DNA of 64,000 nt from Anoxynatronum buryatiense (lineage in GTDB: Bacteria > Bacillota > Clostridia > Peptostreptococcales > Tindalliaceae): assembly GCF_900182905.1 (NCBI RefSeq), contig NZ_FXUF01000017.1, positions 1-64,000 of the forward strand. Reading direction: 5' to 3'. The position numbers were made by a program, and so were the translations under genes. Below the pieces are notes generated by a model. The model was given only the letters and a program-made list of their open reading frames with translations, made no database searches and was not told the origin of the DNA. This document shows, piece after piece, positions 5,630-33,420 of the stretch; position 1 is the stretch's first letter; each line of letters begins with the position of its first letter.

Positions 5630-8600
5630 ATGAACAGCAAAACAAAGAAAATCTTAGCGATGATCCTCATTGTAGTAATGATTTTCCCCACAGTTGTTTT
5701 TGGAGAGGGCAATAGCAAGGACGATTTACAGGGGCATTGGGCAGAGAAAAACATGAGACAGTGGATTGCAGGGGGATGGATGAAAGGTTATCCAGATGGA
5801 AGCTACAGACCTGACGGAAAAATAACCCGGGCAGAATTTATCACGTTGATCAACAAGCTCTATGGCTACGACGCGACAACAGAAGAAAACTATGAAGACA
5901 TAGAGAAAGAAAGCTGGTATCACCAGGCAACAGCAATAGCAAAGCATAACAAGTATTTTGATTGGTATAAAGAAGACAAGCTGTATCCAAATCAGCCAAT
6001 TACCAGACAAGAAGCAGCTGCTGTTATCACACAGATTTTAAAACTAAATGCCTCAGAAGATCTGACAGCAATAGAAGGATTTAACGACAAAGAGACAGTG
6101 CCAACCTGGAGCAGAAGCTATATGGATGCAGTCGTAAAAGGGGGGTATGTAAGCGGTTATCCTGATGCGACATTAAGACCGGCGGGAGATATAACAAGGG
6201 CAGAAGTGGTCGTGATGCTGGATAAGGTCGTTGGAGAATTAATAAGCAGGAAGGGAATTTATGGAACCGCTGAAGAAACAAAAACAATCAAAGGAAATGT
6301 CACCATAAGTGCCCAGCAGGCAGCGCTGAAAAACATGGTGATAGAAGGAGATTTAATATTAGCGGCCGCCATCGGAGATGGAGACGTAACCCTGGAGAAT
6401 ATAACAGTAAAGGGAAAAACCATCGTATATGGTGGCGGGCCAAACAGTATTATACTGATTGATTTCAATGGAAGTCAGATCATAATTGATCTTCCAGACA
6501 ACAGTGCTGTCAGACTGGTAGCATATGGAGACACCCACGTTGGGGAAGTCGTTGCTTATTCGGATGCCATTCTTGAGGAAGCTCAGAGCCTTACCGAAGA
6601 TGGATTTACAACAATCAACATTTATCAGGGAGCCACCATAACCTTGATAGGCGCTTTTGAAAGTGTCAATGTAGGTGCCGGCAACGCAACGCTACATATG
6701 CAAACTGGATCCATCAATACCCTGGTGGTAGAAGAAGCTGCTGCCGATGCGATGATTAACCTAAGCAACGGAACAACCGTAACACATTTAAATATCCATG
6801 CACCTACCCAAGTAACTGGCTCAGGCAACATAGAAACCGCACAGATTAACAGCAATGACGTTATGATTGCTCCGGTTCCATCTATCATCAATATAGGAGA
6901 AGGGATCACATCAAGGGTAGGAGGAAAGACAGTCAATCGCAGTACAACCATCACGACAACCATCACTACAGGAGGCGGTGGCTCCGGTGGCAACTCCGGC
7001 AATAACTCCGGTGGAGGTAATTCTGGCGGCGACAGTGGTACTCCTGACGACAATGGCGGTGGAAGCATACCCAACAATCCACCGAAGGTAGTACAGCCAG
7101 TACAAGATATCAACAACGCTGCTCTGGGAATCCAACTAACAGTGGATTTGAGAAATACCTTTGAAGACAAGGATGGAGATCCTTTAATCATAAGTACAAA
7201 TCTGGGAAAAGTTGAAAATGGTATATGGAGCTATACACCAACAGCATCGGGAACCATGACAGTCGTCATTACTGCAGCGGATGGCAAGGGTGGCAGTGCG
7301 ACCACAACCTTCAAGGTGACAGTAACAGCAGTAACGGATCCCACCAACAATCCGCCAACAGTCACAAGTACCGTATATGCCATATCAGATGCCTTTGTAG
7401 GAATAGAGATAATGGTCGATTTAAGCAATGTGTTTGAAGATATCGATGGCGACCCATTGACATTAAGCGCTAACGTAGGAACCATCGATAATGAGGTGTG
7501 GCGGTATACACCCACAATAGCAGAAGCAAGGACAGTCGTGATTACCGCAACGGATGGCAGAGGCGGCAGTGCGACCACCAGTTTCCTAGTGACGACATTA
7601 ACCATCGAGATCACAGAAATCATCGTAACGTCAGCGGGAGATATAACCGAAATCGAAGAAGGCAACACGTTACAGATGCGGGCAGCGGTTTCGCCAGCCA
7701 ATGCAAGTAATCAAGAGATCCTATGGTCAGTAGACGCCATGACAGGGACGGCAACCATTGATGAAGACGGCCTATTAACCGCAACAACAGCAGGAACTGT
7801 CAACGTAAGGGCGACCGCAAAGCACCATTCAAGTGTAACGGGCAGCAAAATCATTACCATACACCCTGATAATACGCCGCCTGCCCCAGGAGATGGAGGC
7901 ATGCTGACAATATCAGAGGTCAAGACAAATGGTATGAAGCTGAGTTGGACCAAGGCAGCTGATGACAAAACAGCGGTTTCTCAATTAGAATACGCAGCTT
8001 ATCACTCAGAGACAAACAATATAAGCACCGTTGCAGAAATGGAAGCCAACGGAACCCCTGCAGGAGACTACACAGCAGATATTGACAGCATCGTGATATC
8101 TGGGCTGGAGGCCGATACGCATTATTATGTCAATGTGATTGTCAGGGATCAATCGGGAAACAAAGCAGCTTATACGATGACCTCTGAGAAAACCTTTGAA
8201 TATGAGCTGTATTATGCAAGCTACACAGAAAATGCGATTGAAAAATTAGGCATCACCACCGGGGAAAAAACCACGGTTGTCTCTCAAGTGGATGACAGCC
8301 CCTATTCTGGACCACAGGCAATCACTGTAGCAGGGGGGCGGGTTTATTGGGCAGGACAGGATTCTCAAAAAATAGAATCCGCTAATTTAAATGGCTCCGA
8401 CAGAAGAACCTTGGTCAACACAGGGATAAGCAATGTCACCGGCATCGCCGTAGATCCAATCAATGGTTGGGTTTACTGGGGAGACTATGGCAACAATGCC
8501 ATAAAGAGGGCCAACATTGATGGAACAGAAGTAAGCACCATCATTTCACAGGCAGATACAAGTACTGCCACCTATAAAGGACCCTTTGCATTGGCCATCA

Positions 8601-9812: not shown

Positions 9813-10475
9813 ATGAAAAGAAAAATGATGAAAATCATCATGGTGACCCTTATCCTTTGCAGTTTCTTTACCATGCAAAGCTGGGCAAGGGATCCATTTA
9901 TTGGAGAAATTACCATTTTTGCCGGTTCAGGAGATAAACCTCCAGCAGGCTGGGCCTTTTGTGAAGGGCAGCTATTACCCATTAGTCAAAATACAGCATT
10001 ATTTTCACTACTGGGTACCACCTATGGCGGCGATGGAAAAACTACCTTTGCGCTGCCAGATTTGAGGGGAAGGGTACCTGTGCATCCAGGTCAGGGAACA
10101 GGCTTAACAGACAGGTCATTAGGAGAAGAGATGGGAACAAAGGAAGTAACCCTTATAGAAGCTCAAATGCCCGCCCATCGGCATGAGATAACGATGGATC
10201 TGGAGGTAGAGGGAACCATTAAAGTTTCGGATGCCATGGGAAATAGCCCTGAGCCCCAGGCAAACCACGTGTTGTCCAGGGGAAATGAAAATGAAAGAAT
10301 TTACTCCGATGGTGTGGGTGCTGCGGTAGAGACTGCAACAGTAAATGAGACAGGAACAGATGCGTTGGTTACCTTTACAGATGCCGGCGAAAGCCTGCCT
10401 GTGAGCAACATGCAGCCCTATATAACAGTTCGATACATCATTGCTTTACAGGGCATATATCCTCAAAGACCTTAA
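9813..10475 (+). CDS. Exported phage-tail-collar-like protein (2 of 3)
   Basis: About 220 residues, with the same architecture as its neighbours. A signal peptide ends near SWAR, followed by FIGEITIFAGSGDKPPAGWA, GTTYGGDGKTTFALPDLRGR and a C-terminal half ending in MQPYITVRYIIALQGIYP. An upstream ATG at 9792 has no ribosome site, so the ATG at 9813, preceded by GGAAAGG, is taken as the start. The three paralogues are spaced by 30-80 bases with no terminator between them and are probably expressed as one unit. The conserved collar half is the N-terminal ~80 residues; the C-terminal halves diverge, as if they bind different partners. Confidence 0.75.
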   Translation: MKRKMMKIIMVTLILCSFFTMQSWARDPFIGEITIFAGSGDKPPAGWAFCEGQLLPISQNTALFSLLGTTYGGDGKTTFALPDLRGRVPVHPGQGTGLTDRSLGEEMGTKEVTLIEAQMPAHRHEITMDLEVEGTIKVSDAMGNSPEPQANHVLSRGNENERIYSDGVGAAVETATVNETGTDALVTFTDAGESLPVSNMQPYITVRYIIALQGIYPQRP

Positions 10476-10505
10476 GTAAAATAATAAAGAAGGAAGGTGG
10501 AAAAA

Positions 10506-11138
10506 ATGAAAAAAAAGATTTCAGGAATGATCATCATCACCATTCTCCTGTGCAGCCTTTTTACCTTACAAACCTGGGCAAATGAGGCCTATCTTGGAGA
10601 AATTAGGATATTTGCAGGAAATTTTGCCCCAAAAGGCTGGGCTCTTTGTAATGGACAGCTGCTACCCATTAATCAGAACCAAGCACTTTTTGCACTGCTG
10701 GGTACCACCTATGGAGGCGATGGAGTAACCACATTTGCGTTACCTGACTTAAGGGATCGGGTAGCCATTGGTGCTGGAGATGGGTATAATGTAGGCGATA
10801 AGGGTGGCAGTGCCACCGTAACCCTTATACCAGCAAATCTACCTGCCCACAGTCATACTGCTGAGGTAACGGCTGATGTAACTGGAACCATTGAATACAC
10901 CAACAATGAAGGAAATACGCCACTACCAGGAGGCCATATGCTGGCTAGGGGAGATAAAAATGAAAGAATTTATTCCGATAATGCTACGCCAACAGATGGC
11001 ATTAACCTTGAGGTGACAATAGATCCGCAAATTTCGACGAGTGCGGTAGGCGGAGGACAGCCAGTCAATAATATGATGCCCAGTTTAGGATTAAACTATA
11101 TGATCGCAATGCAGGGAATATTTCCGAGCTTTGATTAA
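10506..11138 (+). CDS. Exported phage-tail-collar-like protein (3 of 3)
   Basis: About 210 residues. A signal peptide ends near TWAN, followed by YLGEIRIFAGNFAPKGWALC, GTTYGGDGVTTFALPDLRDR and a C-terminal MMPSLGLNYMIAMQGIFP motif shared by all three copies. The strong ribosome site AGGAAGGTGG at 10491-10500 overlaps an in-frame GTG at 10497, so the ATG at 10506 is the likely start. The gene closes the surface block; the genes to the right lie in the opposite orientation. The function is inferred only from the family. Confidence 0.75.
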   Translation: MKKKISGMIIITILLCSLFTLQTWANEAYLGEIRIFAGNFAPKGWALCNGQLLPINQNQALFALLGTTYGGDGVTTFALPDLRDRVAIGAGDGYNVGDKGGSATVTLIPANLPAHSHTAEVTADVTGTIEYTNNEGNTPLPGGHMLARGDKNERIYSDNATPTDGINLEVTIDPQISTSAVGGGQPVNNMMPSLGLNYMIAMQGIFPSFD

Positions 11139-11213
11139 ACAGAAGGGAAAAACGTCGTTGGGGACAGTCTCAACCCGTATCAGAAGGGATCAAACACGTT
11201 CAGTACGGCAGGA

Positions 11214-11281
11214 AAAGGAAGATGCCAAGCTGCCCCAGTTTAATATGGCACTTGTGTGTGGCGAAGCTCCCATCTTCCTTT
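11214..11281. terminator. Possible long-loop bidirectional hairpin between convergent genes
   Basis: An 11-bp perfect inverted repeat (AAAGGAAGATG at 11214-11224, CATCTTCCTTT at 11271-11281) brackets 46 bases between two convergent genes. The loop is long and there is no extended T-run, so a terminator role is tentative. Confidence 0.35.
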
Positions 11282-11288
11282 GCGCCTT

Positions 11289-12449
11289 CTACTGAACCTC
11301 ATTAATCACCAGCTGGTAATCGTTGCATTCAGATTCAATCCGATCATGCAGTATCTGTTTAATGGCCGCAATTTTGTCTTCATCGGCAGGTTCTGCCATG
11401 GTCACCTCAACGGTGACCATGGTTTTCTTTTCCCCCTGAGCCACCCGAATCACCTTCACCTTGACACCGGTTACAGCTTCGTTAAGGCAGGCCAGCACCT
11501 GATCCTTCGCCGCCTCTGTTTTTGCCGTGTCGATGGAGACGGGGTCAATGTGCACTGTCAGTTCAATACCCATCTGGCTTTTCACCTCTTTTTCCAGCTG
11601 GTCAATGACAGTGTGGGCATCCACAATATGGGTGGTATCCGGCATTTCCGCGTGAATGGAGGCCACTACCCTTCCCGGGCCATACTCATGCACCTCCAAG
11701 TCATGGGCTTTCAGCACAAGGGCACTTCCATCAACAATGTCATAGATTGCATCCACCACGTGGTCCTCCGGGGCTTTTCCCAGCAGACTGGTGGCGGTGT
11801 CTTTGGCGGCGTCAAAACCGGAATACATGATTAACAGCGAAATGAGCAGGCCCATGGCACCATCCACGGGAAAAGCCGTGTACTGGCCCAAGATCATGGA
11901 AACCACCACCAGAGAGGTGGCGGCCACATCGCTGATACTGTCATAGGCGGCGGCCTTGTTAATGCTGGAATTAATGGTGCGGGCAATGTAACGGTTATAA
12001 GAAAACATCCAAAGCTTCACCAGAATGGAGAGGATCAAAATCACCACAATCACCAGGTGATACTGAACGACTTCCGGGTTCATCAGCCGCTGGAAAGACT
12101 TTTGCAGCAGCTGAAAGCCCACCAAAAAAATCAGGGCGGCCACCACAAGGGAACCAATGTATTCCACCCGGCCGTGGCCGTGGGGGTGATTGCCGTCAGG
12201 GGGTTTATTGGAGATCTTGGCACTGATGATGGAAATCACCGACGAGCTGATGTCTGTCATGTTATTGAAGGCATCGGTAATGACGGCGATGCTGTTGATG
12301 AACAGCCCCAGGGCTAACTTCACGGCAAAAAGAAGCACATTGCAAAAAATGCCCAGGTAGCCTGAGAGGGAAATATACTGTTCGCGCACGTCATGATTGC
12401 TGACGTCTTCATGATTGTTGATCCATTTTCGGATAATTCGCTTAATCAA
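11289..12449 (-). CDS. Cation diffusion facilitator (CDF) family transporter
   Basis: A membrane efflux protein for divalent metals (Zn, Fe, Mn or Co), probably a proton antiporter, about 386 residues. The CDF pattern is clear. Transmembrane helices carry the metal-site motifs DAFNNMTD (helix 2) and DSISDVAAT (helix 5). The cytoplasmic loop motif HPHGHGRVEYIG lies between them, and a hydrophilic C-terminal ferredoxin-like domain contains HAEMPDTTHIVDAH. A second, extra C-terminal domain of ~80 residues follows. An ATG at 12458 abuts the GCAGGAG ribosome site directly, whereas the TTG at 12449 is spaced by 9 bases and gives the family-like start MIKRIIRKWI, so it is preferred. The metal cannot be assigned from sequence alone. 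Confidence 0.85.
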   Translation of the reverse strand: MIKRIIRKWINNHEDVSNHDVREQYISLSGYLGIFCNVLLFAVKLALGLFINSIAVITDAFNNMTDISSSVISIISAKISNKPPDGNHPHGHGRVEYIGSLVVAALIFLVGFQLLQKSFQRLMNPEVVQYHLVIVVILILSILVKLWMFSYNRYIARTINSSINKAAAYDSISDVAATSLVVVSMILGQYTAFPVDGAMGLLISLLIMYSGFDAAKDTATSLLGKAPEDHVVDAIYDIVDGSALVLKAHDLEVHEYGPGRVVASIHAEMPDTTHIVDAHTVIDQLEKEVKSQMGIELTVHIDPVSIDTAKTEAAKDQVLACLNEAVTGVKVKVIRVAQGEKKTMVTVEVTMAEPADEDKIAAIKQILHDRIESECNDYQLVINEVQ

Positions 12450-12611: not shown

Positions 12612-13748
12612 ATGGAGAGGGAAGGGAAAACAATCGCCATTGGTGTCATCATCAACCCCATCGCCGGCCTGGGAGGGCGTGTGGGACTCAAAGGAAGCGA
12701 CGGGCCCGATGTGGTGGAAAAAGCGCTGGCCCTGGGAGCGCAGCCTGAAGCGGCACAACGGGCAGCCAACGCCCTGGCTGAACTGGAAGAAATAAAAGAA
12801 AGCCTCATCGTGCATACCTACAGTGGCGACATGGGTGAGCATCTCCTCACCTCCATGGGGTTTACCGTCAGTCTGGCGGGAACGCCGGCTGCGGGGCGCA
12901 CCACCGCCCAAGACACCATGGAAGCAGCCCAAAAACTGCGGGATGCCGGCGTGGCACTCATTCTCTTTGCCGGTGGTGATGGGACTGCCCGCAATATCTG
13001 CCAGGCCATCGGCGAAGATGTGCCGGTGATCGGCATTCCCGCCGGGGTGAAAATCCACTCGGCTGTGTATGCCACCAATGCCCGCAATGCCGGGCTGGCA
13101 GTAAAGGAGTACCTGCAGGGGCTGGAGGCAGAAGTGGCCCTGGCAGAAGTGATGGACATTGACGAAGACATGTTTCGCCAGGGGCGTCTCAGTGCCCGGC
13201 TGTATGGCTATATGAAAGTGCCTGTTTCCGGCAGTCATATGCAGCACACCAAATCAAGCAGTGTGTCAGAGCATGATGAACTCATGGGTGTGGTGGGTCA
13301 CGTGATCACCAAAATGGAGGAGAAGACGCGCTATATTATTGGCCCCGGAACCACCACCAGGGCCATCACAGACGAACTGGGCCTGTCAGGAACCCTGCTG
13401 GGAGTGGATGTGGTGGAAAACAGCCGGCTGCTGGCGGCGGATGTCACCGAAAACCAGCTCTGGGAGCTGGTGAAAGACCCGGAGGTACCCGTGAAGATCA
13501 TCGTCACCATCATCGGCGGTCAGGGAAACCTCTTTGGCCGGGGAAACCAGCAAATCAGCCCCCGCATCCTTCGTCGGGTGGGGAAAAAGAACATCATTGT
13601 GACGGCCACCGCCTCCAAGCTGAATGCCCTGTACCAGGCTCCCCTGGTGGTGGACACCGGCGACTTGGCACTGGACAAAGAGCTGTCCGGGTACATCGAA
13701 GTGGTCAAGGGCTTTGCCCATACCGTGATTTACCCAGTGACAAACTAA
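12612..13748 (+). CDS. ATP-NAD kinase family protein (COG3199 / AcoX-like)
   Basis: A predicted cytosolic small-molecule kinase of 378 residues. It shows IGVIINPIAGLGGRVGLKGSDG at the N-terminus and the kinase-fold motif LILFAGGDGTARNI near residue 120, followed by GIPAGVKIHSAVYA. This pattern is that of the COG3199 branch related to NAD kinase and diacylglycerol kinase; the natural substrate of this branch is not firmly known. The open frame extends upstream to 12393, but only the ATG at 12612 has a ribosome site (GAGAGGTGG) at a correct distance. It is transcribed divergently from the CDF gene and ended by a strong terminator. Confidence 0.8.
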   Translation: MEREGKTIAIGVIINPIAGLGGRVGLKGSDGPDVVEKALALGAQPEAAQRAANALAELEEIKESLIVHTYSGDMGEHLLTSMGFTVSLAGTPAAGRTTAQDTMEAAQKLRDAGVALILFAGGDGTARNICQAIGEDVPVIGIPAGVKIHSAVYATNARNAGLAVKEYLQGLEAEVALAEVMDIDEDMFRQGRLSARLYGYMKVPVSGSHMQHTKSSSVSEHDELMGVVGHVITKMEEKTRYIIGPGTTTRAITDELGLSGTLLGVDVVENSRLLAADVTENQLWELVKDPEVPVKIIVTIIGGQGNLFGRGNQQISPRILRRVGKKNIIVTATASKLNALYQAPLVVDTGDLALDKELSGYIEVVKGFAHTVIYPVTN

Positions 13749-13799
13749 GCAGGCACTTGAAAAGGCACTTGGAAATCCTTCCGAGTGCCTGCTTTTTTT
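13748..13799 (+). terminator. Rho-independent terminator
   Basis: Inverted repeat AGCAGGCACT (13748-13757) and AGTGCCTGCT (13784-13793) followed by seven T, starting at the last base of the kinase-like gene's stop codon. Confidence 0.9.
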
Positions 13800-13839
13800 G
13801 ACGAAACTGAAAAGTGCTGCGGGGTACTGACTGGCCACC

Positions 13840-14907
13840 TTACAGAAACTGATATGAAAGAAAAAAAGGAATCACCAGCACAATGGCCAGCAGGCGCACC
13901 AAATGCATGAGGCTGACTTTCACAGGGTCGGCATCCAGCTCAAGGGCGATGGCGCTCATTTGAGACAGGCCGGCGGGGGAGCAGGCACACAGCGCGGTGA
14001 GTAAGTCCCACCGAAAAATACGGTGAATGAAATAGGCCAGCAAAAATCCACTCAGCAGCTGCATTACTGAAATGACCAGCAGCGGCAGCCAAAGAGCCTT
14101 GAGATAGTGCATGAAGGGTTGATTAAAGGTCAGCCCCAGCACCACCCCCATGCCGATTTGTGCGAAAGTGACGATTTGAGGCGGCGGTGCGGGCATCTGA
14201 AAACCGGCAATTCGCAGTGACGCGATCAGCAAAAGTGCTCCCAGCATACCGCCGGCGGGAAGCCCCAGATAATAGCCAAGTGTACCGCCAACGATTCCCA
14301 GCAGAATGCCCCGAAGAACGGGCAGGCTGTACCAGGGAAGCGGAGCCGTCTGGGCGTCGCTCAAATGAATGAGAGTGGCCGAGGCATCCTCTCGCTGAAA
14401 AGCAGGCGGATGAGCCTGAAACCATTTCATGGTCATGGGAATGGTGGCATACACCAGAATAATGCGCAGAGAGTGAAAAAAAGCAACCTTGGAAGCGTCC
14501 ATATGATAAGAAAAAGCTAAAATAGTCATCTCAGCAAGGCCGCCGGGAGTGGCACTGATTAATGCGGTGGCACTGTCGAGGGGACTCACCCGCGCCAGCA
14601 CATAACCATTGAGAAGCCCGGTCATCACCATCCAGACAGCCACCAGTACGGCTGGAGCCACTAGCTTTTTCAGCACCCGAAGCAGTTCCCTTGAAAAACG
14701 GGACCCAATCATGGTGCCAATGATAATTTGAAAAAACTGACGAGTCCATAAAGGCAGATCCGGCCAGGGGACGCCAAAACCCAGGGTGACAGCCACCAGC
14801 AGCATAGACCCCAGCATGGCTGCCGCCGGAATGCTTCCCCTTTTAAATGCCCGGTAACCGGTATAACCAACACCGGCCAACGCCGGGTAAATCAACAGCT
14901 CTTTCAT
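13840..14907 (-). CDS. AbrB-type membrane protein (AbrB duplication domain)
   Basis: An integral membrane protein of 355 residues with about ten hydrophobic segments. It contains two internally similar halves, each with a glycine/proline-rich signature: ATPGGLAEMTILA in the first and CSPAGLSQMSAIALE in the second. This is the AbrB-duplication family (COG3180), long misnamed ammonia monooxygenase. Members are now thought to be transporters, but the substrate is unknown. It lies 18 bp downstream of citC on the same strand, so it is probably co-transcribed. A role in exporting or importing an organic acid in citrate metabolism is a reasonable guess from position only. The start ATG has AGAAGGTGA upstream. 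Confidence 0.75.
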   Translation of the reverse strand: MKELLIYPALAGVGYTGYRAFKRGSIPAAAMLGSMLLVAVTLGFGVPWPDLPLWTRQFFQIIIGTMIGSRFSRELLRVLKKLVAPAVLVAVWMVMTGLLNGYVLARVSPLDSATALISATPGGLAEMTILAFSYHMDASKVAFFHSLRIILVYATIPMTMKWFQAHPPAFQREDASATLIHLSDAQTAPLPWYSLPVLRGILLGIVGGTLGYYLGLPAGGMLGALLLIASLRIAGFQMPAPPPQIVTFAQIGMGVVLGLTFNQPFMHYLKALWLPLLVISVMQLLSGFLLAYFIHRIFRWDLLTALCACSPAGLSQMSAIALELDADPVKVSLMHLVRLLAIVLVIPFFLSYQFL

Positions 14908-14925
14908 ATTGTCACCTTCTGATCA

Positions 14926-16059
14926 TTAATGGCGGTGGTTCTTTTGCATCTTTTTCTGCATCGTGTCAACAAGATGCCTGCCTTCATCAGACAGCAAAAA
15001 AGTCAACGTGCTCGCCGGTACCATCTGAGAAATCAGGTCAATCTGATTCTCCAGCAAAGCGGCGCGCACCCTTGAAGCGCTGATCCAGCCGTTGGTATCG
15101 GTATCGGTCAACCGGGGAATCTCAACGACTTCAATGCCCATTTCAGGCAACAGGCTTTTCATGGTTTCGTTGTAATGGCGGGTGGTGAGGCAGTAGGGTT
15201 CCTCTCCAATAAACCGCTTTGAGATTCCCAGGGGTGGTGCAATACGGCTGCCAAACAGCGTGAGATCCAGACGGCAGTGAATCTCATTCACGGCAGAGGC
15301 ATCTTTAATAAAGTAAGAAGGAAAGGTGGCTGATGAAATCAGGTAAGGGCCACCCCGGTGAACCACCACATTGTTCAAATGAGCCGTTCCTTCCTTTACC
15401 AGTTGATAACGCACTTCTGCCGGAAAACTGGACCGTTCTTCTGAGAGCACAAAAAGGTGAAGGGTGTCGCAGTCATTGGCGGCTGTTTCCACCAAATACT
15501 GGTGCCCCAAAGTAAAAGGATTGGCATTCATCACAATGGCTGCGATGGCATCAACTTCTTTACTTCCAGAAGATGCCGGTGGAGGAAGGTCGACAGCATC
15601 AGGATTCTGGCAGTTCTTAAGAGGCTGAAGAGACTGATTTTGTTTGAGCTGATCCACGTAGGCAGCAAGACCATGCCGCCGGTTCTCCAGCAGTGTGACG
15701 CCGGGGGCAACGGTAACGACCTCAAAGAAACCGAGTTCACTGAACATGGCCCGGTTGTTGGACGGCGTGAACACAAAAAGATGGGTGCGGCCCCGGTCAA
15801 AGGCCTCACTGATCAAACGGGAAACAATGGCAGCGGCAATTCCCTTTCCCTGATGGGTGCACCGAACCGCCAGGCATTTGAAAACATTACCTGCGAGTGA
15901 ACCCGTCCCCACCAGTGAAGTACCTTCATAAAGGGCCACGGTGAGTTCCACATCGGTTTCAAAATGCAGCCCCTGGGATTTCACCAGAGAAATGATGGGT
16001 GCAAGAGCCTCGGTGTCATCGGGAAGCAGGATGGTTTCATGGTACTGGTAAGGATTCAC
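14926..16059 (-). CDS. citC: [Citrate (pro-3S)-lyase] ligase
   Basis: Activates citrate lyase by acetylating the thiol of the prosthetic group on CitD, using ATP and acetate. It has 377 residues. The N-terminal ~140 residues form a GNAT-like domain (CTHQGKGIAAAIVSRLI). The C-terminal part is a nucleotidyltransferase-fold ligase with IVMNANPFTLGHQYLVE (HxGH-type ATP site) and a later ISASRVRAALLEN motif. The start is GTG, with a strong AAGGAGG seven bases upstream. Unusually, it is not inside the citDEFXG operon but divergent from the GntR regulator ~10 kb of genes away, sharing an intergenic region with the GntR operator. It may therefore respond to the same signal. Confidence 0.92.
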   Translation of the reverse strand: MNPYQYHETILLPDDTEALAPIISLVKSQGLHFETDVELTVALYEGTSLVGTGSLAGNVFKCLAVRCTHQGKGIAAAIVSRLISEAFDRGRTHLFVFTPSNNRAMFSELGFFEVVTVAPGVTLLENRRHGLAAYVDQLKQNQSLQPLKNCQNPDAVDLPPPASSGSKEVDAIAAIVMNANPFTLGHQYLVETAANDCDTLHLFVLSEERSSFPAEVRYQLVKEGTAHLNNVVVHRGGPYLISSATFPSYFIKDASAVNEIHCRLDLTLFGSRIAPPLGISKRFIGEEPYCLTTRHYNETMKSLLPEMGIEVVEIPRLTDTDTNGWISASRVRAALLENQIDLISQMVPASTLTFLLSDEGRHLVDTMQKKMQKNHRH

Positions 16060-27243: not shown

Positions 27244-28035
27244 TTAACTCCTTCTTACACCATCCGCGGCAGGACATCGCGGCTTTATCGCTTCATTTAA
27301 CTGCTCATTCGGACATTCACCTACTCTAGCAGTGCTGATAACAGATAGATAATCCTGTATCATGTCTCTGGTAACATTCATTTGTATAAGATATAAGTCT
27401 GCCAGTGTTTTCTTTAATTGATAAACGATTTCCTTATTCTCCATTCCCGCCGGTACAGGTGTGTATTCCAGTAGAAATACGGTTTTTGCAACATCATACA
27501 GAAAATCTCCATGACATAAATTCATGAAATCTATAACCACAATTTGTCCATTCGATAAGAATAGATTACCTGGGTGAAAATCTCCATGACATAGCCTGTT
27601 CCCATCACCTAGCTTTTCCAACATTTGCAATGCCTTTTTTCGCGTTTCCAGGTGATCAGGTAATCCCTTTACGATATGATATTCTAAAAATTCTTTGTAA
27701 TTTGGAACAGTCGAAATCTCATTCCGACCAATTGACTTATGGATCTCTGCCATATATACTGCACATTTCTCGACATCACCTGTTTTTATAACCCAATCCA
27801 ACAAAGATTCTCCTTCAACTTTGTCATAAATAATGCCCATCTGCTCTTCGTAAAAAACTATCTCATATGCATGTGGTTTTGCAAAAATCATATGGCGTAT
27901 GGCCTTAGCATTGAAAAATTCTCTTTCTACTGCTTTCAGGGGATAGCCTGTGCCAAAAAGCTTGAGCACTTTTCCTTCTTTGAGTTCATATACAGTTGCA
28001 GTATTACCTATTCCAATTATTTTACCATGTTTCAT
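27244..28035 (-). CDS. APH-type phosphotransferase family protein
   Basis: A kinase-like protein of 263 residues related to aminoglycoside/choline phosphotransferases. Visible features are a glycine-rich start (GIGNTATVYEL), a Lys in GKVLKLF, the Brenner-type catalytic motif CHGDFHPGNLFL and the metal Asp in VVIDFMN. The substrate is unknown; members of this family include antibiotic-modifying enzymes and many housekeeping small-molecule kinases. The start at 28035 has TAGGAGA eight bases upstream; the frame's earlier ATG has none. It is one of several single-gene units in the AT-rich minus-strand array. Confidence 0.75.
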   Translation of the reverse strand: MKHGKIIGIGNTATVYELKEGKVLKLFGTGYPLKAVEREFFNAKAIRHMIFAKPHAYEIVFYEEQMGIIYDKVEGESLLDWVIKTGDVEKCAVYMAEIHKSIGRNEISTVPNYKEFLEYHIVKGLPDHLETRKKALQMLEKLGDGNRLCHGDFHPGNLFLSNGQIVVIDFMNLCHGDFLYDVAKTVFLLEYTPVPAGMENKEIVYQLKKTLADLYLIQMNVTRDMIQDYLSVISTARVGECPNEQLNEAIKPRCPAADGVRRS

Positions 28036-28093
28036 AAAACGATCTCCTAACCCTTTAATCTTCAATAATAGCCAGCTTTGAAGTCCGGCGATT

Positions 28094-28111
28094 CGCAGAT
28101 CCTCATGTTAG
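28094..28111. repeat. Decayed copy of the cassette boundary motif
   Basis: CGCAGATCCTCATGTTAG closely matches the right end of the palindromic element at 29945-29963 (CGCAAATCCTCGTGTTATG). It sits between two unrelated genes in the minus-strand array. The matching left half is not seen. Confidence 0.4.
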
Positions 28112-28134
28112 CCGAAGGATAGCCAGTATATTTG

Positions 28135-28665
28135 TTAGTCCCAATTGTGCCTATGCTTTTTCCACCACTGATAAGCAACTTTCTTCATTTCCTCATGGCG
28201 CTCAACATCAAAGTCAAGATATGTAATGATATAATCCCTTCCTGCGAATTCTTTTACATTTTCATGTTGAGAAGCCAAAAGTAGTGCATAAAAAGTTAAT
28301 GCCCTCTCATAATCGTCCTGTGTTTCAATATTTTCAATTAAATATGGTATAGCTGGCTTACCTATCATGCCTAATTCTTCTGCAGCTATATACCATGTAT
28401 GCCCATCACCATATGATCTTGTAAATCCGCTGTCTTTAAGTTTTTCTATTAAGTATAAAACTTCCGCCTCTTTAATCTGCCTTTTATTAAGATAATCAAT
28501 CTCTTCTTCCAGCCTAACAACTGTTTCCAGCAGTTGTTTTTCTTTTTCACTTTCAATTTGATAGTGATTCTTAAAGGAGTTCAATTCGAAATATAGATAC
28601 CCTATGATAATAAGCAAACAAAATATAAGTAAATTCTTTATGATTAAATGTCTTTTAAAATTCAT
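28135..28665 (-). CDS. Membrane-anchored HEAT-like hypothetical protein
   Basis: A 176-residue protein that I do not recognise by name. One N-terminal transmembrane segment (about 8-26) is followed by a short coiled coil (about 35-65, ESEKEKQLLETVVRLEEEI). A helical domain then contains AAEELGMIGKPAIPYLIENIE, which looks like a HEAT/PBS-lyase repeat. The protein probably projects outside the membrane. The start ATG has AGGTG upstream. It is flanked by a decayed boundary motif on its downstream side. AT-rich codon use. Confidence 0.6.
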   Translation of the reverse strand: MNFKRHLIIKNLLIFCLLIIIGYLYFELNSFKNHYQIESEKEKQLLETVVRLEEEIDYLNKRQIKEAEVLYLIEKLKDSGFTRSYGDGHTWYIAAEELGMIGKPAIPYLIENIETQDDYERALTFYALLLASQHENVKEFAGRDYIITYLDFDVERHEEMKKVAYQWWKKHRHNWD

Positions 28666-28698
28666 TTTGTAAGCACCTCGCTCTTAACTCTCACAACT

Positions 28699-28944
28699 TT
28701 ATAATATTTCGGCCAACTCATCAGTTGCTGCTGGCGTATAACCTAAATCTTGATTTCCAATTACTTTCAATAAATTCTTGTATTTAATCTTCTTGCATAT
28801 CATTCCTTTATCTCCAACGTTCATAACAAAAACTCGATGCGCCTCCCTTGCGCTTTTAAAAAGACCTGCAAGCATAAACATTAGCTGGTAGTTTAATGGC
28901 AGCATTTCAATTACATTTTTATCAGTCAAGTATAGCGGTTTCAT
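28699..28944 (-). CDS. Hypothetical protein, probably 5'-truncated
   Basis: 81 residues from the first ATG; not recognised. The open frame continues upstream of this ATG for about 40 codons without a stop and without an ATG, GTG or good ribosome site. This upstream part reads like real protein (FLEKNGATINWGVDNPREI). The gene is therefore probably the C-terminal remainder of a longer one, or uses a rare start. No ribosome site precedes the ATG at 28944. Confidence 0.4.
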   Translation of the reverse strand: MKPLYLTDKNVIEMLPLNYQLMFMLAGLFKSAREAHRVFVMNVGDKGMICKKIKYKNLLKVIGNQDLGYTPAATDELAEIL

Positions 28945-29168
28945 ATGCTTCGCAGTTTGGGCGTAACCTTCAATTTCACGCGGGTTATCAACTCCCCAAT
29001 TAATCGTTGCCCCGTTTTTTTCAAGGAAGGATGATTTTTTATGCTTTTTGCTGTCAGTTTGGAATATGCATCAAATAATATTGTATAGCTCTCAAACTTT
29101 GATTTGAGTGCTCCAAGACAAGCCCTTTCTTTTTATATGTAAAACTAAAGCGAGTTAGCGCAATAAAA

Positions 29169-29705
29169 TTAACCTTTATGCCTTTCAACCCATTCATTCT
29201 CTAAAATACTCATTTCCCATAAACTCCAATATTCGTCTCCAATTTTTCTTGCGTCTCTGAGCAAACCCTCTTTTTTAAATCCTGACTTTTCATAACAAGT
29301 AATTGCTGAAGAGTTAAAATCAAACACTCCAAGACTTACTCTATGTAAGTGTAGTTCATCAAAAGCAACTTTAAGAATTTCTGTCATCATTTGTTGTCCT
29401 ATCCCTTTTCCCCTTACACTCATATCACCAACTAATACTTTCCCAACTCTTGCTGATTTGTTTTTTCTATCTATATTTCCTAGCGTTATATGTCCAATAA
29501 TTTTCCCAGTTTCCTTTTCTTTAACACTGTAAATCAAAGTATTGGAATTGTACTTATTTGCATCTTTAAGGTAGCTTTCTAGTTGTTGTTTATCTAAGGG
29601 GAAACTAAAGTTAGGTCCTCCCCATTGAAGTAAAATTTCCGGAGTTTTAATCCAATTTATAAGTTGTTCAAAATCTGAAAATTGAAAAAATCTCAGCTCA
29701 AACAT
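29169..29705 (-). CDS. GNAT family N-acetyltransferase (RimJ/RimL type)
   Basis: 178 residues. An acetyl-CoA-dependent transferase of the RimL-like subgroup. The acetyl-CoA loop is visible as VRGKGIGQQMMTEIL near residue 118, and the C-terminal CYEKSGFKKEGLLRDA is typical of the subgroup. The substrate is unknown; relatives acetylate ribosomal proteins, antibiotics or spermidine. The start has GAGGAGA eight bases upstream. It is a single-gene unit in the minus-strand array, next to the palindromic element. Confidence 0.8.
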   Translation of the reverse strand: MFELRFFQFSDFEQLINWIKTPEILLQWGGPNFSFPLDKQQLESYLKDANKYNSNTLIYSVKEKETGKIIGHITLGNIDRKNKSARVGKVLVGDMSVRGKGIGQQMMTEILKVAFDELHLHRVSLGVFDFNSSAITCYEKSGFKKEGLLRDARKIGDEYWSLWEMSILENEWVERHKG

Positions 29706-30020
29706 AATAAAGTTCTCCTCGTTTCTTTTGTCTTGTATACATTCACTACATCTATTCTGGTTTTTTAACTGCCTTCAAACGTATTATTCCTGCAGCCATG
29801 GACGACCACATCCATACATCGCTTTTTGATAACGGTCTCGGGATTTGCGAACTTGGCGGTTGGCGCGATTTTTGACCCCAAAGCTTTTTCCCCTTGCAAA
29901 AATCATGACAATCGTCAAGTTAGGACGTAGGCGCTAGCCGGAGCCGCAAATCCTCGTGTTATGTTAAGTCGCGTGCCTCTTGTCTGTGAGATCTCAATGG
30001 TTGCCGGCGCCTTGAAATGA
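29706..30020. other. Intergenic region carrying the palindromic element
   Basis: There is no gene in these 315 bases. Most of it is the long folded element at 29829-29962, and it is distinctly richer in GC than the genes on both sides. Confidence 0.6.
29829..29962. repeat. 134-nt attC-like nested palindrome
   Basis: Three nested complementary pairs fold this DNA into a single long arm. The outer pair is ATAAC (29829-29833) with GTTAT (29958-29962). The middle pair is GGATTTGCG (29841-29849) with CGCAAATCC (29945-29953). The inner pair is a 25-nt arm (29850-29874) with 29897-29921, 20 of 25 positions paired. Size, outer GTTAT ends, bulges and position between unrelated single-gene units resemble an integron attC site, although the ends do not fit the strict GTTRRRY consensus. 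Confidence 0.5.
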
Positions 30021-30917
30021 TTATATTCTTACAACATTTTTATGAAAGTATTGCTTTACTTCCTCCCTAGAACGGAATTTAACTAGATTAAGCAAACTAT
30101 GTGTTTGAAACTTTCTTAAAGAGTGAAGTTTAAAATGGTATTTCAAAAAAATATTTCTTATAATATATCTTCTCAACTTCTTATCTATGTAGGATTTCAT
30201 TTTAAGTCTAGCATTTATATGATCATAGATTGTATATAATGACATACAGTAGACTAACGGCAAGTACAAGACAGTTAATATAATAGGCAATAAAAATGAT
30301 TTTAAAGTATCCAAACTGCCAAACGTATGAAAGTCTTTTACAGTTAAATGTATTGCATTAGCGAATATCATTAGCCCTAAAATACTAATTAGTGTTGTAA
30401 TTAATTTCTCCACTTGCTTGTATTTTTCCTCAAAACTAGCTACTGCTTGTAACGCTCCTAAAAACACTAACACAAAAGTCAATATTATTTCTGGCAATAA
30501 CCTAAAAGTATACGCGTTTGCAATAAACTGGATAACAACAATTATTTTAATACTTTCAATGACTTTCCTTTTAAAAAAACCTTCTTGTAACGCCTTATCT
30601 GTCGAATTAAACAATAACGCAAATGCAGTAAAAGTTACCCATATTAAAGTATCTTTAGTTAGATTGGTATCCCAATATCCAAGTATAAATAAAAAATAAA
30701 TAATGCCAGCTATATAGATAAACATAATGGAAAAAACACAAAGAATAATCTTTGAACATAATACTTTAAAAACATTGGACAAAGATTCTCTTGTCCCTTT
30801 ATTTACTAAGAAAAAGACAAACAACACTATTAGCCAGAAGCTAATTGCTAACTCTCTATTCGTAAACAATGAGATTCCTCCCCAAAAGAAATTTCGGTTC
30901 TCTTTTATCGACGACAT
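30021..30917 (-). CDS. Hypothetical multi-pass membrane protein
   Basis: 298 residues, no family recognised. About seven hydrophobic segments fill residues 20-235. The last ~65 residues are basic and hydrophilic (many Lys, Arg and His) and are probably cytoplasmic. The start at 30917 lacks a clear ribosome site. Strongly AT-rich, with very rare-looking codon use compared with the citrate and chemotaxis genes, which suggests recent transfer. The array setting suggests an accessory function such as defence or resistance, but nothing in the sequence proves it. Confidence 0.5.
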   Translation of the reverse strand: MSSIKENRNFFWGGISLFTNRELAISFWLIVLFVFFLVNKGTRESLSNVFKVLCSKIILCVFSIMFIYIAGIIYFLFILGYWDTNLTKDTLIWVTFTAFALLFNSTDKALQEGFFKRKVIESIKIIVVIQFIANAYTFRLLPEIILTFVLVFLGALQAVASFEEKYKQVEKLITTLISILGLMIFANAIHLTVKDFHTFGSLDTLKSFLLPIILTVLYLPLVYCMSLYTIYDHINARLKMKSYIDKKLRRYIIRNIFLKYHFKLHSLRKFQTHSLLNLVKFRSREEVKQYFHKNVVRI

Positions 30918-31521
30918 GATGTGGCAGTCTTGTGCGCGATTTTATATAACGTCGTATTACCGTCACCAAGTTCGTGTTATCCCTTAAAACTAGCGGTATT
31001 TACGAACATGGTTTCGGAAATATGTACTTCTTGTCGAATTTTCTAGTCCTAATTTCTTGATAAACTCATCCGCCAGATTGCTTAAGAGCCTCAGATTTTT
31101 CAAAGACAATTACTGCGTGCATGAGTTCATATTATGGTTGATTGAGTGCATATTACAGTCGGTATAGAATGCTTATGACATAACTATTCAGCATACACCG
31201 CAAAAACCTTTTTTGCTGTTGCTCAAACAGTGTTGTTACAATTCCTGAGGGTATCTTCTGCTGAAAATTTAATGATTTCCTAAAGCCTGCAAAAGATAAC
31301 CTGTAAAAGTGCTGAATGACTTCTTGTCAATATGAAATTCGATCTGATCAGTCAATTATATAATTGGCAGAAGCCGATAGCAAGGAGTTAAGCATATCGG
31401 CATGGTATATTGTATGAAAAAAGCACTCAAAAAAACAGAGAGATTCTTGACAAATCCGTTAATAAAGAGTAGTATGATAAAAAACCGAGTGAACACTATG
31501 TTTCAAGGAAGGTGCTGAAAG
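30918..31521. other. 604-bp intergenic region before TetR/RND operon
   Basis: No gene is supported. The left end has a fragment resembling the cassette boundary (TTCGTGTTAT at 30971-30980, preceded by GCGCGATTTT at 30938-30947). The middle is featureless AT-rich DNA. The right end contains the TetR-gene promoter TTGACA (31447-31452), a 17-bp spacer and TAGTAT (31470-31475). Confidence 0.5.
31447..31496 (+). promoter_or_regulatory. Promoter and possible operator of the TetR gene
   Basis: TTGACA (31447-31452), a 17-bp spacer and TAGTAT (31470-31475) are followed by ACCGAGTGAACACT. This shares the ACCGA half-site with the palindrome before the RND operon at 32195-32208, which suggests autoregulation. 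Confidence 0.55.
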
Positions 31522-32133
31522 ATGACTGATACAAGAGAACGTATAGTAGGAACCGCTTTTAAGCTTTTTATGCAAAAGAGCTTTAAGGAAGTTACTATAA
31601 AAGAGATAGTTGAGAAAACTGGAGTGTCACAGGGGGCTTTTTTTCATTATTTCAAAACAAAAGAAGATTTATTTTTGGAAGTAATTGGAAAAGCCGTATC
31701 CTCCGCTGGAGACTATTATAATAGTCTTGCCAAAGACTCCCTACAGCAATTTTATAGACAATATATACAGTCTTTTTTAGATAACTTTTTGCCTGAAATC
31801 ATTTCGACAGAGGATGGAAATTCTGTGATGAATTATTTTTCACTCTACTTTGAAGCAGTGAAAATTTTTCCTGATTTTAAACGCAGGTTATCTGACATTC
31901 ATGAAATTGAATTAAATAGTTGGAAGTCGGTGGTTTCGAAGGCGAGGGCTAATGGAGAAATCTCCTCTGTTATGAAGGATGAAGAAATAGCTAATATGTT
32001 TATCAACTCTGGAGATGGATTATCACTGCATATTATTTATATGGGGTATAGCAATGAAGATGTAAAAAATATGTGGATAGCTCTTTGGGATGGTTTTTAT
32101 GAAGTGTTGAAATGTAAAGCAGATGATTATTGA
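31522..32133 (+). CDS. TetR/AcrR family regulator of the adjacent RND pump
   Basis: 203 residues. The N-terminal helix-turn-helix is clear (about 10-55: FKEVTIKEIVEKTGVSQGAFF followed by HYFKTKEDLF). The C-terminal ligand domain is unspecific. The gene lies directly upstream of the MFP-RND pair, separated by a terminator and an ACCGA..TCGGT palindrome. It most likely represses the pump and is released by a toxic compound; the inducer is unknown. The ribosome site GGAAGGTG is close to the ATG. Confidence 0.82.
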   Translation: MTDTRERIVGTAFKLFMQKSFKEVTIKEIVEKTGVSQGAFFHYFKTKEDLFLEVIGKAVSSAGDYYNSLAKDSLQQFYRQYIQSFLDNFLPEIISTEDGNSVMNYFSLYFEAVKIFPDFKRRLSDIHEIELNSWKSVVSKARANGEISSVMKDEEIANMFINSGDGLSLHIIYMGYSNEDVKNMWIALWDGFYEVLKCKADDY

Positions 32134-32152
32134 AGATTCCATTACAAATTTT

Positions 32153-32182
32153 AAAATGGAAAATAATTTCCATTTTTTTTTG
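32153..32182 (+). terminator. Rho-independent terminator after TetR gene
   Basis: AAAATGGAAA pairs with TTTCCATTTT and is followed by a run of T to 32182. It separates the regulator transcript from the pump operon. Confidence 0.8.
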
Positions 32183-32194
32183 CAATAAAAAAAA

Positions 32195-32208
32195 CCGACT
32201 ACTCGGTA
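32195..32208. promoter_or_regulatory. TetR-type operator upstream of RND operon
   Basis: ACCGA-CTAC-TCGGT, a perfect 5-bp inverted repeat 22 bp before the adaptor gene. It probably overlaps the promoter (TTGCAA at 32181-32186). A matching half-site lies before the TetR gene. Confidence 0.6.
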
Positions 32209-32229
32209 TTTAACATAAGGAGGCAGAAC

Positions 32230-33420
32230 ATGAAAAAATTATTGGCATTAATGATTTTAGGAGTACTGGTACTAACGGGTTGTCAAACTCAAGCTGCAAT
32301 AGAGGTAGCAGGAAAAAATGTGAGGATAGTCGAGGCTGAAATCCGCAAATATCCCGTAACTCTGGAGTATATGGGAATTGTGGATACTGAGGATACAAGG
32401 TCATCGGCCTTTAAAACAGGAGGAAAAATAGAAGAAATATACGTAAAACCAGGGCAACAGATTAATAAGGGAGATCAACTGATCCGATTGAATGAAGAGG
32501 ATTTAAGATCAGCAGTAAGTGTGGCCAAGGCCCAGTATGAAGTGGCAGAAACTCAATATAATATGGCGATGAAGGGAGCAACAGAGGAGGAAATAAATCA
32601 AGCAAAAATCAGGGTGGAAGTGGCAGAAAGAAACTTAGAAAATACGAAAGATCTATATGGAAAATATCAAAAATTAGTAGAGGCAGGGGCAGTATCTCTC
32701 CAACAGCTACAAGAAATTAAGCTCAAATTGGACTTGGAAGAAAAGCAGCTTAATAGTGAGATGGAAGCCTATAACCGGATATTAAAAGGAGCGGGAGATG
32801 ATGAGCTTCAAATATTAAAAAGTCAGATAGATATTGCCCAGGTCACCTATCAGCAAAGTCAAGACCTGCTTGAAGAGAGTATCCTTAGAAGTGACATAGA
32901 TGGAGTTGTTTTGCAGATACAGGTGACAGAAGGAGATTATATATCCCAAGGGATGCCAGTTGTTATTATCAAGGGAGAAGAAACCACGGTAACGGTAGGC
33001 GTTAGCAATGAAGATGCAAGTATAATAGCTTTGGGAATGGATGTGATTGTAAGACATCATAACGAAGCGGTTAAGGGAATTGTAGAAACCGTATCCTCTA
33101 TTCCTAAAAATCAAAGTAATCTTTATGAAGTAAAAATAGACCTGGAGCCAAATACAATCCCCATAGGATCATTCGTAAATATCGACTTTCTCTTAGGGGA
33201 AGAGGAAGGGATATTTCTTCCGATGAATATTCTTTTGAATGAAGGCATTGATTTTGTATATATTGTTCAAGATGAAAGGGCTGTAATGCGGGAAGTTCTC
33301 TTAGGCGAGGTTTTTGGAAACGAAATAAAGATTCTGGAGGGAATTAATCCGGGAGATCAAGTAATTGTGGAAGGTATGAGGAGTGTAAAAAATAATGATA
33401 ATGTGGAGATTAATGAATAG
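32230..33420 (+). CDS. RND efflux adaptor lipoprotein (HlyD/MFP family)
   Basis: 396 residues. The signal peptide ends in the lipobox LTGC (Cys about residue 14), so in this Gram-positive setting the adaptor is anchored to the outer face of the membrane. It has a biotinyl-lipoyl-like half-motif (GGKIEEIYVKPGQQINKGDQ) at about 60-80, a long coiled-coil hairpin (about 95-205), the second lipoyl half (LRSDIDGVVLQIQVTEGDY) and a beta-barrel domain. It is translated together with the RND gene 14 bp downstream. No TolC-like partner is present, as expected without an outer membrane. Confidence 0.85.
   Translation: MKKLLALMILGVLVLTGCQTQAAIEVAGKNVRIVEAEIRKYPVTLEYMGIVDTEDTRSSAFKTGGKIEEIYVKPGQQINKGDQLIRLNEEDLRSAVSVAKAQYEVAETQYNMAMKGATEEEINQAKIRVEVAERNLENTKDLYGKYQKLVEAGAVSLQQLQEIKLKLDLEEKQLNSEMEAYNRILKGAGDDELQILKSQIDIAQVTYQQSQDLLEESILRSDIDGVVLQIQVTEGDYISQGMPVVIIKGEETTVTVGVSNEDASIIALGMDVIVRHHNEAVKGIVETVSSIPKNQSNLYEVKIDLEPNTIPIGSFVNIDFLLGEEEGIFLPMNILLNEGIDFVYIVQDERAVMREVLLGEVFGNEIKILEGINPGDQVIVEGMRSVKNNDNVEINE

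Follow-up and report, generated by a model that had tools for sequence, protein, structure and literature searches.

The intergenic palindrome at 29827-29964 is very probably the attC equivalent of an integron-like cassette system that is run by a tyrosine recombinase other than the integron integrase IntI. It lies in a 64,000-nucleotide stretch of Anoxynatronum buryatiense DNA (hereafter the window). Computation on this and related genomes reveals the sites, an attI, cassette units, a strand bias and linkage to the recombinase. The preliminary description had suspected an attC-like site in a Firmicute, perhaps of a different recombination system. That suspicion is supported by relatives in which such sites stand behind the gene for a tyrosine recombinase, as had also been anticipated, and this recombinase has no IntI domain.

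The element and the array of the window

The 134-nucleotide nested palindrome with three complementary pairs that had been described was recovered by an inverted-repeat check and by direct reading. Its middle pair is perfect (9/9 bp, 29841-29849 with 29945-29953), its inner pair matches at 20 of 25 positions (80%, 29850-29874 with 29897-29921), and the outer ATAAC/GTTAT pair was read directly off the sequence. The element is also richer in GC than its 300-base flanks (0.50 versus 0.33 and 0.31), as stated before. Folded as single-stranded DNA, the plus strand (29827-29964) reached -26.2 kcal/mol (z -2.91, 1 of 200 shuffles as good); the minus strand (29829-29962, a difference of four bases in extent) folded less stably, at a level that did not clearly stand out from chance (-21.2, z -1.39, 19 of 200 shuffles as good). 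No terminator-like site, that is a GC-rich stem followed by a T run, was found in 29827-29964, and Rfam gave no match at the gathering score in 28000-32500. The element matches a site in a genome of the same family (G003, C20:5008-5141) at 82%. In G130, a genome from a different family, an attC that follows an unrelated gene (L093) is identical to the element at 129 of 138 columns.

An integron-like cassette array occupies the minus strand of the window and comprises an attI-like site, one complete cassette and a half site near 28100:

30946-31045, minus strand: attI-like site, orphan, with the crossover G at 30950 and no adjoining recombinase gene
29833-30949, minus strand: cassette 1, which begins with the TTA that follows attI, ends with the G of the attC-like site and holds a 298-aa gene and the window element
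30021-30917, minus strand: gene of cassette 1, 298 aa, no Pfam match
29827-29964, minus strand: attC-like site, with R'' at 29958-29964, L'' at 29945-29953, L' at 29841-29849 and R' at 29827-29833
29169-29705, minus strand: GNAT acetyltransferase, encoded in the next cassette, which begins at 29832
28699-28944, minus strand: 81-aa open reading frame, possibly a cassette remnant (uncertain)
28135-28665, minus strand: 176-aa open reading frame preceding the half site, possibly a cassette gene (uncertain)
28094-28114, minus strand: left half of an attC-like site (R'' and L''), with TAACATGAGGATCTGCG at 28094-28110

On the minus strand of the attC-like site, the crossover would fall between 29833 (G) and 29832 (T). 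The attI-like stretch stands just before the 298-aa gene, whose product is probably a membrane protein. In local alignments it scored 69-71 against the attI of two recombinase loci of the order (L091 and L117; maximum of 40 shuffles, 30) and 40-62 against four others (shuffled maxima 28-42). A tblastn search of the window with the recombinase returned nothing significant (best E 0.53), and no recombinase remnant was found beside the attI-like site. The start of cassette 1 and its own R'' flank are identical at 8 of 11 outer positions. No attC was recognised behind the GNAT gene, nor a right half at 28094-28114. The genome has only two exact copies of TAACAYGAGGATYTGCG, one in the half site and one in the window element.

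Whether the element is unique depends on the method: by blastn it is single-copy in its 4.16-Mb genome, and a covariance model built from 25 sequences, two of them from this genome, finds 11 places at E<=1, of which 10 are at E<=0.001. These fall on contigs C17 (two), C27 (two), C8, C33 (two), C11 (three) and C23. The attC-like sites on C27, C33, C8, C11 and C23 were collected as separate stretches (L223-L227), two of which are short contigs of 9.7 and 3.9 kb, and no recombinase was found beside the arrays in the five stretches examined. The genome carries a broken recombinase gene (C17:80605-81329) that matches residues 1-106 and 211-363 of the query; the middle is missing, and its translation has a Ser at the position of the relatives' catalytic Tyr. 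Downstream of it lie a methyltransferase gene, an attC-like site (L010:18379-18527) and a pentapeptide-repeat gene. A search for IntI with TIGR02249 gave only sub-threshold matches in this genome, as it did in 14 control genomes, and the best of those in the window's genome proved to be the broken recombinase. Since this is the only recombinase copy found there, the cassette system of the window's genome looks decayed, with a broken recombinase, an orphan attI and scattered short arrays.

Arrays of attC-like sites in the order

Two contigs of the G003 genome (C20 and C21) carry single genes lined up mostly on the same strand and separated by palindromic spacers, and in G004 an intact gene for a 363-aa tyrosine recombinase is followed by a same-strand row of such genes. 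Recombinase matches occur in 53 of 297 genomes of the order at E<=1e-30, some over the catalytic part alone, and in 39 at E<=1e-50. The surroundings of 32 matches were taken for array analysis. A scan for R''-L''-L'-R' palindromes, whose spacer ranges were set after the first arrays had been seen and whose asymmetric spacers favour one reading direction, returned 113 sites in 40 sequences (594 kb) versus 4.0 expected from shuffles and 11 in reversed sequence. Fully symmetric sites, such as those of L228 (below), scored on both strands.

The sites are tied to the recombinase gene in position and in direction. Around 35 recombinase loci (293 kb downstream and 145 kb upstream), 101 of 103 sites lay downstream on the strand of the gene, two upstream on the same strand and none on the other strand. 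At least two sites were present at 18 of these loci, one behind the gene at 10 and none at seven (L103, L107, L108, L109, L116, L120 and L122 in the palindrome scan). For L103, L107, L108 and L109 the sequence stops less than 600 bases behind the gene; L116, L120 and L122 offer about 2.5, 10.8 and 12 kb without a site. L111 and L114 have few sites, mostly 54-55 bases long, and these may be chance matches. Arrays are present in the single-contig genomes G130, G047, G019 and G007, which makes mis-binning an unlikely cause of them.

A covariance search with a model of the window element and 24 relatives matched 35 of the 297 genomes. Strong recombinase hits and attC matches coincided in 22 genomes, with 17 having the recombinase only, 13 attC only and 245 neither (p 3e-14); once the 12 genomes whose sequences went into the model were set aside, the counts became 11, 17, 12 and 245 (p 7e-7), both p values taking genomes as independent with no correction for relatedness. 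Thus 17 of the 39 genomes with a strong recombinase hit gave no match to the attC model; part of the model-negative genomes carry other attC types, the arrays of family f2, that the model misses. One of the 13 attC-bearing genomes without a strong hit, G032, contains a recombinase fragment. The expectation of many copies between unrelated small genes held across many genomes of the order, where attC-like sites stand behind unrelated single genes, mostly in one orientation.

The sites themselves are folded R''-L''-L'-R' palindromes of variable length, as attC sites are. Among the 89 with a score of at least 12 there are 59 distinct L arms with pairing kept, arm pairing being part of the scanner's selection. 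R'' usually reads [AC]TAAC and R' usually GTTA[TG], AAC and CGTT having been required by the scan, and the commonest right spacer, CGGGAAC, occurs in 16 of the 89. The ends of the window element had been said to depart from the strict attC consensus, and most of its relatives do likewise: 9 of the 89 have both RYYYAAC and GTTRRRY. When 25 sites were aligned, sequences with changes on both sides occurred in 6 of 8 arm pairs, although 24 of the 25 were chosen by the scanner, which demanded arm pairing. By predicted folding energy, the bottom strand was the more stable in 70 of the 89 sites and the opposite held in 17; on average it was the more stable in 24 of 28 loci, and it was so for 31 of 32 Bacteroidota sites. 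Random fragments read on the same strand leaned the other way, with the bottom strand the more stable in 27 of 89 and the opposite in 61.

A stretch of about 70-115 bases behind the recombinase stop codon was conserved up to GTTA and then divergent at four loci. An attI-like stretch ending at GTTA (or GTTG) could be seen by eye behind 26 of the 35 recombinase genes; none was seen behind L107, L108, L109, L111, L114, L118, L120, L121 and L122, of which L109 has only 5 bases left behind the gene. In an alignment of 14 of the 35 loci, picked for a visible stretch, the terminal motif was CGTTA in nine and AGTTA in five.

Comparison of cassettes pointed to the limits of the exchanged unit. A cassette common to G122 and G085 (about 89% identical) keeps its identity from ACG|TTA to ACGTTA, and the flanks differ on both sides; a second one, shared by G130 and G007 (76%), obeys the CGTTA rule at its start and has a diffuse end. 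Over 103 cassettes (74 intervals in the arrays of the order and 29 in six Bacteroidota loci), the first bases of a cassette agreed at 7.14 of 11 positions with the sequence flanking its own R''; the value was 4.59 for the start of the next cassette and 4.07 by chance, with 4.33 as the highest of 200 shuffles. The own end was the better match in 74, the worse in 18, and 11 were ties. Excised circles that rebuild the site would produce such a relation. The outer bases of R'' and R' did not covary within one site (72, 41 and 28 of 78 versus shuffle means of 70.2, 36.7 and 29.5), as would be the case if R' is part of the next cassette. Judged from such comparisons, the units appear to be mobile one-gene cassettes joined at G|TT.

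An open reading frame of at least 60 aa was present in 64 of the 74 intervals of the order's arrays, and the longest one lay on the strand of the site in 58 of these 64. Predicted anti-phage proteins and aminoglycoside-modifying-enzyme families are part of the cargo. Among 71 cassette proteins were Abi_alpha (L112:5539-6342) and an APH-family protein (L094:6856-7755); further cassette genes encode TIR-domain, streptomycin-adenylyltransferase-family and predicted defence proteins. A scan with a promoter consensus stayed at chance level. Separately, L095 (G047) contains three group II introns (RF02005) with maturase open reading frames, at 13699-15799, 10020-12118 and 6036-7976, directly behind attC-like sites; one maturase is split in two frames and two of the introns are 99.7% identical. 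Group IIC introns are known to target the attC sites of integrons.

The recombinase and its relatives

In an alignment of the recombinases the six catalytic residues are kept, save the tyrosine in L092. The spacing from the K strand to the HxLRH motif is 58-59 residues in all 22 aligned recombinases of the order versus 99-105 in 17 of 17 IntI; the IntI domain of about 41 residues is thus absent. XerD was left out of this comparison, its value being an artefact of the motif pattern. TIGR02249 scored eight of the recombinases at 197-232 bits (cut-off 265) and two IntI controls at 476 and 490. For six of the eight, the best NCBIfam family was XerA_Arch, 'site-specific tyrosine recombinase/integron integrase'. 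An AlphaFold model (pLDDT 85, pTM 0.52, with pLDDT below 50 at 335-348, around the catalytic tyrosine) was closest among solved structures to the Vibrio integron integrase 2a3v (Foldseek E 5.9e-17), followed by XerA. A quick maximum-likelihood tree of 91 rows, with SH-aLRT and no bootstrap as branch support and with L171, L175 and L192 left out for want of the motif, joined the 17 IntI and one Treponema enzyme in a clade (SH-aLRT 100). The 22 aligned recombinases of the order fell in a separate clade of 25 rows (SH-aLRT 93), and L122 and the second recombinase of L113 lay outside the latter. No protein passed the IntI cut-off in 29 genomes, which include single-contig ones and one, G113, that is not recombinase-bearing, nor in G001-G006 or the window's genome.

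The N-terminal part of the recombinase is called by Pfam as HARP in 9 of 22 members and in 1 of 8 further proteins, the other seven showing no HARP at E 0.05; where Pfam makes no call, this part was recognised only through alignment to the query. L104 has ten sites and a recombinase without the N-terminal domain, so the domain is not essential everywhere. A phage origin was not indicated: the matches covered the catalytic domain only, and 0 of 11 records covered 80% of the query.

Outside the order, the matches listed in a contig search include near-full-length recombinases in Bacteroidota, in one Spirochaetota and in one Undinarchaeota record, together with named Bacillota records. At least six Bacteroidota loci have rows of sites behind the gene (10, 7, 5, 5, 4 and 4 matches, all on the strand of the gene), and the remaining Bacteroidota loci listed have at most two matches each. 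The 80 loci kept among the matches listed gave 52 site matches versus 6 in one shuffle. The 17 IntI loci among those listed gave six scanner matches in four loci; given so few, the sites are not simply standard attC, and the scanner is no general attC finder. Plasmids of Chryseobacterium and Rufibacter carry such recombinase genes with palindromic sites behind them. One of these plasmids, from Chryseobacterium sp. SNU WT5 (L228), has on one stretch, besides the recombinase gene, an IS110 element, a group II intron gene and three 148-bp palindromes that share their arms. Apart from these, a Treponema sp. RGIG10193 enzyme (L170:4110-5339) combines the IntI insertion (spacing 100 residues) with an N-terminal extension that seems to resemble that of the order's recombinases, possibly a link between both groups.

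Interpretation and comparison with known systems

We infer that recombination is single-stranded and that the enzyme and its N-terminal domain share the work in the following manner. A cassette would consist of one gene and then one long imperfect palindrome, the bottom strand of which would fold to a hairpin whose shape the tyrosine recombinase reads. The enzyme would join the folded site at G|TTA to the conserved attI behind its own gene, which would leave the cassettes in one orientation. The extra N-terminal domain, which is usual and is HARP-like where Pfam sees it, may hold the folded site instead of the IntI insertion. HARP domains bind junction DNA.

A different way of moving the cassettes, as double-stranded DNA in the manner of Xer or phage integrases with the hairpins as by-products or as replication or transcription elements, is unlikely. 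It would suit an enzyme that lacks the IntI insertion, aligns with recombinases of the XerA/XerD type and has a XerA-like model as its best family in most cases, but it sits poorly with the diversity of arms that keep their pairing (pairing partly selected for), with the both-side changes in arm pairs and with the strong folding bias towards the bottom strand. We consider it still less probable that the arrays are remnants of ordinary integrons, attC clusters that lack an integrase with a classical IntI elsewhere or lost. The 13 of 35 attC-bearing genomes without a strong recombinase hit would fit such remnants, and published surveys (PMC9024848) report for Firmicutes one complete integron and a few integrase-less clusters. 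Yet IntI stayed below the cut-off throughout the 29 genomes searched, some of them single-contig, and it is a non-IntI recombinase that directly precedes attI and the array. Hardly any weight falls on a transcription terminator or a REP-like or MITE-like repeat: the window element is palindromic, intergenic and of higher GC than its flanks, as these may be, but no terminator-like T run follows its stem, and its relatives form oriented arrays behind a recombinase and bound exchanged units.

An integron-like system run by a non-IntI tyrosine recombinase would have been overlooked. Standard integron detection requires the IntI-specific domain, according to PMC9668308, so that systems like that of the window would escape surveys. 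In titles and beginnings of abstracts of the open-access literature, no integron-like system came up whose recombinase is other than IntI or carries HARP. We lean towards the broader view that these arrays form a second integron lineage, missed by surveys for the IntI domain, in which HARP-type recombinases take the place of IntI. It would span Bacteroidota and Bacillota, and the enzyme has further relatives in Spirochaetota and archaea. In this lineage the N-terminal domain would replace the IntI insertion as the part that holds the folded single-stranded site, and the lineage may be a sister or forerunner of the IntI integrons. Bacteria may thus have a second, so far unnoticed way of gathering and exchanging single genes. 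Should the recombinase act on folded attC without an IntI domain, the accepted rule of integron site recognition would need revision, and the origin of integrons would become testable by comparison of the two lineages.

The system shares much with the IntI integrons of class 1, of Vibrio and of other chromosomes: an attI downstream of the recombinase gene, cassettes of one gene that mostly point the same way, R''-L''-L'-R' palindromes, the G|TT junction, the folding bias towards the bottom strand and, in one genome, group II introns beside attC sites. It differs from them in a recombinase that is without the domain of about 41 residues and groups outside IntI, in a recombinase gene codirectional with the cassettes and in looser R boxes.

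In early work on Treponema, the recombinase gene of the spirochaete 'reverse' integron reportedly points in the direction of the cassettes. PMC9668308 likewise describes the reversed orientation of spirochaete 'reverse' integrons. The systems of the order share this gene direction, and the N-terminal extension of the Treponema enzyme looks similar to theirs; unlike the order's recombinases, that enzyme has the IntI insertion, falls inside the IntI clade and has an extension that is not HARP by Pfam. With XerA and other Xer enzymes the order's recombinase has in common that the IntI insertion is missing. Xer acts on dif-like sites and has no cassettes; in contrast, the gene of the order's recombinase is followed by attI and an array. 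The array of the window and others in its genome resemble CALIN in having no adjoining recombinase, whereas the same kind of site stands behind a non-IntI recombinase in relatives. On the sequence evidence, then, we do not class the system as an IntI integron, whose defining domain its recombinase lacks, and it appears to work like one.
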